NCBI GenBank assembly: GCA_003213375.1
Contig: QCNA01000007.1
Coordinates: 1 to 46,094 of the forward strand
DNA: 46,094 bases
Source: Prochlorococcus sp. AG-424-A03
GTDB lineage: Bacteria > Cyanobacteriota > Cyanobacteriia > PCC-6307 > Cyanobiaceae
Direction of reading: 5' to 3'
The notes under the pieces: generated by a model
Seen by the model: only the letters and a program-made list of their open reading frames with translations
Told to the model about the DNA's origin: nothing
The model's database searches: none
Translations under genes and position numbers: made by a program
Shown here: in pieces, positions 41,014-43,416 of the stretch
Position numbering within the stretch: the first letter of the stretch is position 1
Layout: each line of letters begins with the position of its first letter

Positions 41014-41214
41014 ATGGGCGAAGCTAAAAGAAGAGAAGAATTAGGATTACCACCTAGACCAAAAAAAAATGAATTAAATAAATCTGATAGATACCTTTCA
41101 TGGCTTCCAATTACTAAATCAAGAATTAAGAAATACCCTTATATGGGTGTAGCAACAATGGCACTAGGAGCGATAATTTTCTTAGTAAGTGGGGGAGCAA
41201 ATAGGATTAATTAA
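41014..41214 (+). CDS. MGEAKRR-type (DUF2839-like) membrane protein, 66 aa
   Basis: The product starts MGEAKRREELGLPPRPKKNE and ends in a transmembrane helix (GVATMALGAIIFLVSGG), as in the copy at 38590. It is the more canonical of the pair. Function unknown. It converges on the CopG/MauE operon. Confidence 0.87.
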   Translation: MGEAKRREELGLPPRPKKNELNKSDRYLSWLPITKSRIKKYPYMGVATMALGAIIFLVSGGANRIN

Positions 41215-41246: not shown

Positions 41247-41507
41247 CTAAGATTTTTTTTGTAATAGTTTAACGCCAGATATTATTGAGATTATTGAAGT
41301 TATACCTAGAAAAATCGAGTAAAAAGGTTGCAAATTAATAATGCCAAAATTACCTGTATGCCATTTTATTAACCAAAAAGCATCTATTCCTAGTGGCTGA
41401 AGAATACTATAAATAGTTCCAGATAAAATAGTAATTAGTAATGGGATTGCTGAAATTGCGGTTATTTTTCTGTGAATTTTTCTTTGATTTGCTTTTAATT
41501 TTTCCAT
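41247..41507 (-). CDS. PepSY-TM-like membrane protein, 86 aa
   Basis: The sequence HRKITAISAIPLLITILSGT, then IKWHTGNFGI, then YSIFLGITSIISIISGVKLL gives two helices with conserved-looking His near the first helix and in WHTG. This resembles the TM pair of PepSY-associated proteins, some of which bind haem or metal. It starts directly after the stop of the DUF3721-like gene, so it is the last gene of the operon. Confidence 0.58.
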   Translation of the reverse strand: MEKLKANQRKIHRKITAISAIPLLITILSGTIYSILQPLGIDAFWLIKWHTGNFGIINLQPFYSIFLGITSIISIISGVKLLQKKS

Positions 41508-41729
41508 CTATTTCCTCAAATAGATATGTAATTCTTTTTCGTTTTTGCACGGCATCCATTTATCTTGATTCTTATGTATTCCTTCGCAACCAAGTTCTAA
41601 AGATCTATTTTCGGCCTCCTCTTCAGAAAGAAATGTACCCCTCATATGTGCATGCGAATAACTATTGAAATTTAGAGATAAGGAAAATATAAAAATAAAA
41701 AATTTAAAATTTCTAAGAAAAATATGCAT
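41508..41729 (-). CDS. DUF3721-like secreted small protein, 73 aa
   Basis: A signal peptide (MHIFLRNFKFFIFIFSLSL...SHA) is followed by HMRGTFLSEEEAENRSLELG, CEGIHKNQDKWMPC (C48, C61), and ELHIYLRK. The GCxGxH and WMPC elements are those of DUF3721, found in marine cyanobacteria. Cysteines and histidines could bind metal. It lies between the CopG-like protein (21 bp) and the PepSY-like gene (0 bp). Confidence 0.75.
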   Translation of the reverse strand: MHIFLRNFKFFIFIFSLSLNFNSYSHAHMRGTFLSEEEAENRSLELGCEGIHKNQDKWMPCKNEKELHIYLRK

Positions 41730-41750
41730 TATTTCAAATAAGTATTTGTA

Positions 41751-42269
41751 TTAAGGAGAGATTTTATCAAATATTTTTGTTTTGCCAGTTTTACTAAATG
41801 AAACTACTTTGTAGTTCTCATAATCATGAGAGTGCGATTGGTGAGAATGTATTTCCATCCCTGGAGAGCCAATTGGCATGCCCGGAACTGCTATCCCATT
41901 AATATTTGGTTTTTCTATAAAAAGTTTGTTGATTGATTCAATCGGGACATGTCCTTCAATCGTATAGTTAGCTATTTGAGCAGAGTGACATGATCTCAGA
42001 TTATTGGGAATTTGATATTGGTTTTTAATTGCTGAAACATCTTCAACTATATTATCAACAACTTGTAATCCATTATCTCTTAAATGATTGATCCATTTTT
42101 TGCAACAACCACATGATGCTGATCTGTAAGAAACAACTTTTGGGATATCTATATTTTCTAACGTTTCTGCACTAATCCTATGAACGTTATTTGTATTTGC
42201 AAAAAGCATTCCAGAAGCAATTAGATAATTTAAAAATCTGGTTTTTATAAGTACTTTATTAATTGCCAT
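41751..42269 (-). CDS. CopG/DUF411-family periplasmic metal-binding protein
   Basis: The 172-aa protein has an N-terminal signal or anchor (to about residue 29), then the DUF411 core: YRSASCGCCKKWINHLRDNG with C53, C55 and C56, LRSCHSAQ with C94, YTIEGHVPI, and VPGMPIGSPGME (128-139). A His-rich tail HSHQSHSHD (141-149) follows. CopG proteins of this family bind copper at the Cys cluster and act in envelope copper handling. In cyanobacteria the role is untested as far as I know. It is central in the seven-gene minus-strand operon. Confidence 0.85.
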   Translation of the reverse strand: MAINKVLIKTRFLNYLIASGMLFANTNNVHRISAETLENIDIPKVVSYRSASCGCCKKWINHLRDNGLQVVDNIVEDVSAIKNQYQIPNNLRSCHSAQIANYTIEGHVPIESINKLFIEKPNINGIAVPGMPIGSPGMEIHSHQSHSHDYENYKVVSFSKTGKTKIFDKISP

Positions 42270-42330
42270 ACAAATTAAGACGATTAAATTCTATTTTTTA
42301 ATTAACAATAAATGAAAATTTGTAAAAGTG

Positions 42331-42783
42331 CTATTTAATCAAAAGCAGGACACTCATAATTGCCATTAAAAGATTTTCTATAAAACTAATAATTCCCAAA
42401 GGAGTTTTTGCATATCCACCGATACATGCACAATTTAATTTTAACTTATCCAAATAAACAGCCTTAAATACTGAAATCATTCCAGAAATCCCTAAAATTA
42501 GGGCAATAAAAATAATTAAAGAGGGTGGAGAAGATTTAAGAAAACTTATTCCAATTAATAATTCGCAAAAAGGATAAATATATATCCAACCATTAAATTT
42601 AGAAGATATTAAATCATATTTCTTATAACTTGTTCCAAAAGCTTCAATATCCATAAGCTTGAGCATTGCTAAAAGACAAATTGATATCCCCATAAAAATT
42701 TGGAAACTTTTAAGCAATGAAATGGTTATCAGAAATGAAGTACCAAAGACTGCAATTAAGGGGGTAAATGACTTAATCTTCAT
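42331..42783 (-). CDS. MauE/DoxX-like membrane protein
   Basis: The 150-aa protein has four helices. It has AMLKLMDIEAFGTSYKKYDL, YIYPFCELLIGISFL, and a C-x-C pair in LNCACIGGYAKTPLGIISFI (C118, C120). This is the layout of MauE/DoxX-type redox membrane proteins, which help form or pass disulphides. Next to a CopG-like protein it could keep metal-binding thiols reduced; that is inference. It is two bases after the 76-aa gene and 61 bp before the CopG-like gene. Confidence 0.72.
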   Translation of the reverse strand: MKIKSFTPLIAVFGTSFLITISLLKSFQIFMGISICLLAMLKLMDIEAFGTSYKKYDLISSKFNGWIYIYPFCELLIGISFLKSSPPSLIIFIALILGISGMISVFKAVYLDKLKLNCACIGGYAKTPLGIISFIENLLMAIMSVLLLIK

Positions 42784-42785
42784 TT

Positions 42786-43016
42786 TTAACTTTTAAGGAT
42801 AGAATCACAAATACTGGATGGATTTGCTTGTTTAACTATTTTCAGTCTTTTGATAAGTTTGTCTCGATCTATTTGATGTTTTAAATATTTAATACATAAA
42901 TTTTTTTCCTGATATACCTTTGCTATTGGAGCAATCTTTATAGCAATAGAAAAAGTACCAATAACTAAAAGAATATTTGTAGCTAGTCGAATATTTGGTC
43001 TAAAATTTGATCTCAT
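42786..43016 (-). CDS. Membrane-anchored two-cysteine protein, 76 aa
   Basis: An N-terminal helix (ATNILLVIGTFSIAIKI) anchors a basic helical domain with Cys in KNLCIKYLKHQ and SSICDSILKS. The start overlaps the stop of the 38-aa gene (ATGA). It is in the operon leading to the MauE- and CopG-like genes, so an envelope thiol role is possible. Family unknown. Confidence 0.62.
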   Translation of the reverse strand: MRSNFRPNIRLATNILLVIGTFSIAIKIAPIAKVYQEKNLCIKYLKHQIDRDKLIKRLKIVKQANPSSICDSILKS

Positions 43017-43129
43017 TCGTATTCTTTATTTCTGTCAATAACTTCCCTTAAATATATATCTTTTAGCTCGTCATTGTATCCATTTTCTTTCGCAAATTTC
43101 TCTAATTCCTTCAACTCTTTTTCTGTCAT
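43013..43129 (-). CDS. Micro-protein, 38 aa, in the CopG operon
   Basis: The product reads MTEKELKELEKFAKENGYND, then ELKDIYLREVIDRNKEYE: charged and helical. It overlaps the upstream gene by TAATG and the downstream gene by ATGA. Tight coupling on both sides supports it. Function unknown. Confidence 0.62.
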   Translation of the reverse strand: MTEKELKELEKFAKENGYNDELKDIYLREVIDRNKEYE

Positions 43130-43272
43130 TAAGCAGATTTGGAAATATTGTTTTTCATATCTTCAATTTGGTTGATTAATTCATCTAACCATTCTGTATT
43201 ATTTTCGGATCTTTTCTGAAAATAAGTAATTTTAGGTTGATTGATTTCTAGCGTCTCATAATCTCCACTCAT
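43129..43272 (-). CDS. Micro-protein, 47 aa, first gene of the CopG operon
   Basis: The product reads MSGDYETLEINQPKITYFQK, then RSENNTEWLDELINQIEDMK: acidic and soluble. It starts the chain of overlapping genes that leads to the CopG-like gene. The promoter should lie in the 144-bp gap to the divergent 34-aa gene. Confidence 0.6.
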   Translation of the reverse strand: MSGDYETLEINQPKITYFQKRSENNTEWLDELINQIEDMKNNISKSA

Positions 43273-43416
43273 AAATTAACCTTAAATTTATACTCTGCAT
43301 AATTTATCTAGAGAAATAATGCTCATCAATAGGCTCTAATACTTATTTGAGATTTTCATGGGTAACAAGTCACTTTTTTAATAGTATAAATATCAAGGAA
43401 TTTATCTTTAAGAAAT

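Follow-up and report, generated by a model that had tools for sequence, protein, structure and literature searches.

A Prochlorococcus operon combining CopG, a MauE-like protein and DUF3721 as a candidate module for copper handling in the cell envelope

Prochlorococcus is the most numerous photosynthetic microbe of the ocean. In one recent study, it was more sensitive to copper than any other picophytoplankton tested (PMC13374865). Here we ask what seven small genes that follow one another on the minus strand of a Prochlorococcus contig do together. The window is the whole 46,094-nucleotide stretch of contig QCNA01000007.1 (assembly GCA_003213375.1) from Prochlorococcus sp. AG-424-A03, the genome of which is 64% complete. 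An earlier reading made from its letters (hereafter the sequence-only reading) had described the genes as an operon, with copper handling as the leading guess. We confirmed that the operon is real, with all seven genes and their order recurring in relatives, and we favor, with modest confidence, its being a minimal envelope copper-handling module for periplasmic copper binding and redox buffering. Since CopG, the MauE-like protein, DUF3721 and a PepSY-like gene recur together among copper genes in other Cyanobiaceae, as the neighborhood search that the sequence-only reading had called for revealed, copper is the best reading of the operon, while the idea of one fixed seven-gene system was not supported.

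The operon and its proteins

All seven proposed open reading frames, overlapping or closely spaced, were found on the minus strand, and the MauE, CopG/DUF411 and DUF3721 identities given to three of them each exceeded the Pfam cut-off (40.3 bits against PF07291, 84.2 against PF04214 and 59.5 against PF12518; cut-off 27 in each case). The features are the following:

43129..43272, minus strand: gene 1, soluble micro-protein of 47 amino acids, no family
43013..43129, minus strand: gene 2, soluble micro-protein of 38 amino acids, no family, overlapping genes 1 and 3
42786..43016, minus strand: gene 3, 76 amino acids, predicted membrane helix at residues 8-35, conserved C41, H47 and C70, no family
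42331..42783, minus strand: gene 4, MauE-like, four-helix membrane protein of 150 amino acids with CxC (NCACIGG), PF07291
41751..42269, minus strand: gene 5, CopG (DUF411), 172 amino acids, with CxCC, PGMPxGSPGM and a lineage-specific HSHQSHSH insert, PF04214
41508..41729, minus strand: gene 6, DUF3721, 73 amino acids, with GCxGxH...WMPC and H28, H52 and H68, PF12518
41247..41507, minus strand: gene 7, minimal PepSY_TM-like protein of 86 amino acids, two membrane helices, invariant H12 and H50
41734..42780, minus strand: accessory MauE-CopG block, missing from a short allele in which DUF3721 begins where the ATG of MauE sits
43285..43346 (approximate bounds), minus strand: conserved upstream block, from an alignment of 72 upstream regions

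By their coordinates, genes 1 and 2 overlap by 1 base and genes 2 and 3 by 4 bases, followed by gaps of 2 bases (gene 3-MauE), 61 bases (MauE-CopG), 21 bases (CopG-DUF3721) and 0 bases (DUF3721-gene 7). By simple hydropathy, gene 3 is predicted to have a single membrane helix, MauE four segments and gene 7 two.

Conservation was followed in a scan with MauE as the query, from which the best 80 of 149 loci were retained, all from Prochlorococcus-type genomes (some titled Synechococcaceae); because of this query the sample is skewed to MauE carriers. All seven genes were found in order at 69 of the 80 loci (tblastn; count from the table), with single genes truncated in some of them, while three loci run into a contig end (L022, L051 and L073) and eight lie at other genomic places without genes 1 and 2 alongside. 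The ratio of nonsynonymous to synonymous substitution rates (dN/dS), computed on full-length ungapped sequences (65-73 per gene; 67 for gene 1 and 70 for gene 2), was 0.137 for gene 1, 0.226 for gene 2, 0.222 for gene 3, 0.184 for MauE, 0.318 for CopG, 0.330 for DUF3721 and 0.197 for gene 7, i.e., all seven are under purifying selection (0.14-0.33). The Cys and His residues pointed out by the sequence-only reading are likewise conserved across relatives; the residue counts below include truncated rows.

CopG has been described as a periplasmic thioredoxin-like protein that holds a tetranuclear copper cluster through CxCC and two Met residues and aids copper resistance in Pseudomonas (PMC7558416, PMC8456105), and it was proposed as a copper donor to CueO (PMC7558416). 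The window protein matched the profile of Pseudomonas aeruginosa CopG (PDB 6wis/6wje) across the whole domain (E-value 4.1e-46), with the same thioredoxin-like domain and the CxCC, SCH, EGHVP and PGMPxGSPGM motifs. C53, C55 and C56 are kept in 77, 76 and 77 of 79 rows, M131 and M138 in 76 and 78, and the four His of a C-terminal patch in 75-78; in a separate alignment the CxCC and the Met pair are invariant (29/29 rows). By analogy, M131 and M138 would be the two Met copper ligands, and the protein, judged by eye, appears to be exported. It differs from P. aeruginosa CopG and from CutG of Rhodobacter capsulatus cutFOG in its HSHQSHSH insert, found in 7/7 Prochlorococcus-type rows and 0/22 others of the CopG alignment. 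The window operon also lacks a multicopper oxidase gene, whereas these two proteins are described as often adjoining a CueO-type oxidase, as do relatives of the window protein. In L181, L185, L188 and L191, CopG genes of another group come immediately after a member of one gene cluster; the L188 member encodes a protein resembling type III polyketide synthases (chalcone synthase family).

The window MauE lacks an N-terminal glutaredoxin-like domain, whereas all 14 alignment rows from other genera have one, carrying CPWG or CPYG, and in a further relative (L186) the Pfam glutaredoxin model was over its cut-off. The CxC motif is kept in 13 of these 14 rows. With MauE of methylamine utilization the window protein shares a PF07291 score over the cut-off, four predicted helices and CxC; the difference is that its relatives bear the glutaredoxin-like domain, some of them among copper genes. 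No methylamine dehydrogenase family was found among nine products in a general Pfam scan, which was not a search aimed at these families.

DUF3721, judged by eye, is probably exported. It carries the WMPC motif (W58, P60 and C61 conserved), and C48, C61, H28, H52 and H68 are kept in 78-79 of 79 rows. Its structural model is a helix / beta-hairpin / helix (predicted local distance difference test score, pLDDT, 82), for which a PDB fold search gave nothing significant; the same held for the weak gene 7 model (pLDDT 72, predicted template modeling score 0.36), and PDB sequence searches with the two proteins gave no match. The PepSY-TM-like label of gene 7 stood as a weak resemblance, with a Pfam score under the cut-off, and a 100-residue relative (L264:6271-6573) passes PepSY_TM (31.5 vs. 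28.8 bits). H12 and H50 are kept in 78/78 rows and in 25/25 rows of a separate alignment, and a gene 7 profile matched relatives in 74 of 244 cyanobacterial genomes, a count that includes weaker paralogues. PepSY_TM proteins are described as heme-dependent reductases with axial His, among which CrpH is linked to copper (PMC13038864). Gene 7 resembles the reductases FoxB, FpvG and CrpH in its weak match, located at the last membrane segment, and in its two invariant His, as these are described to have heme-binding His; it differs from them in having just two helices and in being too short for a PepSY domain.

Copper genes around the relatives

Among 151 Cyanobiaceae genomes, DUF3721 was found in 132, DUF411 in 32 and MauE over the cut-off in 32. 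All 37 DUF411 places of this sample were read with their flanks, and 27 of them lie outside both the genus of the window and genus g56, which we take to be Prochlorococcus-type, partly from the CopG alignment and from a tree. These 27 CopG regions held a multicopper oxidase (15), a CopM-like (DUF305) gene (16), a copper-type P-ATPase (10), MerR (16), MauE (10, one of them a 70-residue fragment in L194), the DUF3721/PepSY-like pair (13) and RppA/RppB-type two-component genes (6). At least one of the oxidase, CopM-like gene, copper-type ATPase, MauE or DUF3721/PepSY-like pair was present in 20 of the 27. In L179, L184 and L186 the order was RppA-RppB-CopG-MauE-oxidase-(divergent MerR)-CopM-DUF3721-PepSY-like, with 4-base overlaps at the CopM-DUF3721 and DUF3721-PepSY-like borders. 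The families were named by scanning representatives separately against Pfam and NCBIfam, where the copper ATPase (TIGR01511), the oxidase domains and DUF305 passed their own cut-offs; as the region models were derived from clusters in the same regions, the counts are descriptive and not a test.

A second set of 13 regions was chosen from the long DUF3721 list blind to CopG, one of which (L226) had a PepSY-like partner. The 12 without it had no oxidase, CopM-like gene, ATPase or CopG (0/12), and MerR in one. This contrast ties the copper link to DUF3721 paired with gene 7, for which it is frequent, not universal. Tandem DUF3721 pairs were seen in 8 of these 12 regions, one copy having a His-rich tail (e.g., HGHHHH) in L228:7359-7610, L230:6876-7133, L232:6680-6919 and L233:6671-6928. 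We did not count 16 PepSY-like regions as unbiased evidence, as most were picked for a nearby CopG or MauE. Around distant PepSY-like relatives in other cyanobacteria, copper-type or two-component genes were present in 7 of 12 regions (L258, L259, L260, L263, L264, L265 and L267) and absent from five (L256, L257, L261, L262 and L266).

In Synechocystis, CopM binds Cu(I) and confers copper resistance (PMC4335983), and the copMRS/copBAC genes find their likeness in the CopM-like and RppA/RppB-type genes of the relatives' CopG regions. The window's own group differs: a DUF305 search of 10 genomes of the genus and two of g56 gave no match, in line with the report that Prochlorococcus seems to be without CopM-type chaperones (PMC4894872). 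The CopG/MauE/DUF3721 set goes unmentioned in the available passages on copMRS/copBAC.

Long and short alleles, and copies at other sites

DUF411 was matched in 91 of 200 genomes of the genus (35 of the 66 near-complete ones). The PepSY-like gene, at a best match of about 1e-24 or better, was found in 144/200 and 58/66, and at 1e-37 or better in 134/200 and 55/66 (counts by eye and per genome, the site not being distinguished); the ten weaker matches may be another subtype. In three genomes without CopG (L288, L289 and L290), MauE-CopG is cleanly gone while genes 1-3, DUF3721 and gene 7 are all present, and a fourth (L291) holds a fused relic of the MauE start and the CopG end. The short junction was found (≤ 3 mismatches) in 32 of the 200 genomes, compared with none for a reversed control pattern; 30 of them are without DUF411, and the other two, G174 and G291, carry it alongside the junction. 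An assembly gap as the cause of CopG absence was thus rejected for these 30 of 200 genomes. One genome (G172) had neither a DUF411 match nor a strong PepSY-like match.

In a quick tree of DUF3721 and gene 7, 24 of 30 distinct short-junction loci fell in one group (support 96; 25 rows, one a duplicate). The long/short state requires eight changes on this tree and 20 on that of genes 1-3, in both of which the L291 relic and the duplicate L288 were labeled short and many branches are weak, and the supported branches of the former force only 2-3 changes. The pattern points to, but does not prove, a single main loss of the block with later recombination between the two alleles. Close relatives differ in this accessory MauE-CopG block.

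Eight copies of a MauE-CopG-DUF3721-gene 7 cassette lie at other genomic places, seven of them with a gene 3 homologue and none with genes 1 and 2 adjoining. The notion of the seven genes as one fixed system is therefore unsupported on two counts, i.e., the absence of genes 1 and 2 from all eight copies and the lack of MauE-CopG in otherwise intact operons; for the former reason genes 1 and 2 were also rejected as integral parts of the recurrent unit. Both are still conserved at the home site. A gene 1 relative lies > 4 kb from the L076 cassette, and two more (about 64% identical) occur in the genome of the window, at L002:1485-1619 (C19) and L003:1508-1591 (C8); gene 1 may be a member of a small multi-copy family.

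The cassettes resemble the tRNA-anchored mobile islands of Prochlorococcus, presumably those named tycheposons, in that L048 and L074 adjoin a 46-bp repeat of the tRNA-Pro 3' end and L077-L079 lie near tRNA-Thr and tRNA-Tyr. They differ in that the repeat was seen on one side only and that the L071, L075 and L076 stretches showed no tRNA. The sole tRNA of the window is at 804-888 and no 3'-end repeat was found for the window copy; elsewhere in the same genome, a relic of the gene 7 end adjoins the tRNA-Pro repeat. Two genomes, AG-355-P07 and AG-355-N16, have both a home and an other-site copy (assembly contamination is possible), and the home MauE of AG-355-P07 is shortened to 61 amino acids. 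The cassette copy at L048:8451-12450, near tRNA-Pro and with a VapE/helicase-like gene, is a probable mobile element with copper cargo; L048:8451-9839 gave a weak PHROG integrase match (E-value 8.6e-6) and no Pfam family, and L235:18525-19757 neither a PHROG integrase nor a Pfam match.

Carriage by phages or plasmids was not supported: IMG/VR gave 18 CopG pattern matches, none confirmed, MauE had no match among annotated phages and CopG just two distant human-gut records there, and a plasmid search with the PepSY-like relative from L182 gave no match. Two unannotated 'Bacteriophage sp.' human fecal records, MT838112.1:103-426 and MT835550.1:17992-18330, encode DUF411/CopG-like proteins.

At the borders of the window operon, the block upstream of gene 1 is probably its promoter or regulatory region; a consensus promoter scan of 43285..43346 on the operon's strand passed nothing. 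The convergent neighbor at 41014-41214 is a DUF2839 protein (31.1 bits, cut-off 22).

Proposed function and its alternatives

In the mechanism that we propose, DUF3721, with its two Cys and three His conserved, would bind copper, probably as Cu(I), and CopG, through its CxCC/Met site and His-rich patch, would hold it as a thiolate cluster and shift its redox state. The CxC of MauE would then exchange thiol/disulfide electrons with CopG or DUF3721, and the PepSY-like protein would pass electrons across the membrane by means of its two invariant His, perhaps through heme. The net effect would be that excess copper stays bound and less harmful in a cell without a CopM-type chaperone, with MauE-CopG as an optional upgrade on the base set. 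The identity of CopG and the neighbors of its relatives suggest copper as the metal, family analogy points to an electron path through MauE and gene 7, and we infer detoxification rather than supply.

Several observations weigh against the proposed copper module. About half of the genus lacks CopG. MauE is broken in L196 and L206, L199 retains a trace of it and none was seen in L207, with CopG kept in all four; it is also truncated in L060, L069, L070, L072 and L081, where single-cell sequencing errors are possible. CopG can evidently persist without MauE, which is the weakest link. Gene 7 scored 15.4 bits against PepSY_TM (PF03929), under the 28.8 cut-off. Seven of the 27 CopG regions have no marker (L177, L178, L181, L185, L188, L190 and L191), and outside the genus DUF3721/PepSY-like pairs stand alone in the stretch read in L226, L274 and L275. 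The oxidase and CopM-like neighbors are under the NCBIfam CueO and CopM cut-offs, and a copper-type P-ATPase is present in all 12 genomes searched (10 of the genus and two of g56).

The open ocean is poor in copper, and an unlikely but serious alternative is that the operon reduces or delivers scarce copper to plastocyanin, cytochrome oxidase and the like, in the manner of CrpH. PepSY_TM proteins are reported to reduce metals outside the cytoplasm, CrpH to rise on copper starvation and to support copper oxidases (PMC13038864), and the proposed donation of copper by CopG to CueO (PMC7558416) would also fit supply. Against this, the relatives lie beside genes for CueO-like oxidases, CopM-like proteins and copper ATPases, families that have been linked to resistance in the cases studied, and absence from about half of the genus would be odd for a CopG that supplied an essential metal. 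We consider it quite improbable that copper is incidental to a general envelope module for thiol redox or for another soft metal (Cd, Hg, Ag or Zn). MauE and the glutaredoxin domains of its relatives are thiol-redox parts, and two scanned neighbor ATPases also pass a Cd model, with scores lower than under the Cu model. The scanned MerR neighbors score best against CadR/PbrR and then CueR (four under the cut-off; L209:1269-1709 passes CadR/PbrR); those next to DUF3721/CopM score slightly higher with Cd/Pb than with Cu sensors, all under the cut-off. CopG, the CopM-like genes, the CueO-like oxidase and the TIGR01511 ATPase, however, jointly indicate copper.

That the operon is island cargo, retained by chance and decaying without a selected role in the window's genome, would agree with the broken MauE of several genomes, the commonness of the short allele and the gene 7 relic in the tRNA-Pro region. 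This is very improbable given the dN/dS values of all seven genes, the strong PepSY-like match in 58 of the 66 near-complete genomes and the remaining reading frames retained by the short allele.

The detoxifying copper module that we prefer is in part familiar, as CopG is already known; what appears to be new is the pair of DUF3721 and a two-helix PepSY-like protein, and CopG-MauE as an insertable block. The open-licence literature searched held no mention of DUF3721, no DUF3721 and two-helix PepSY-like set with an insertable CopG-MauE block, and, for Prochlorococcus together with MauE, nothing on this system. We tentatively suggest that the base of a hitherto undescribed minimal copper module is formed by a two-helix heme protein derived from PepSY and a small exported DUF3721, that a swappable CopG-MauE adds copper-thiol redox, and that the alleles are a natural copper-tolerance polymorphism that recombines in wild populations. 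One subgroup of DUF3721, a family present in 132 of 151 Cyanobiaceae genomes, is now tied to copper, and, with the operon defined and two alleles occurring naturally, the way in which Prochlorococcus copes with copper can be tested directly in culture and in ocean surveys.

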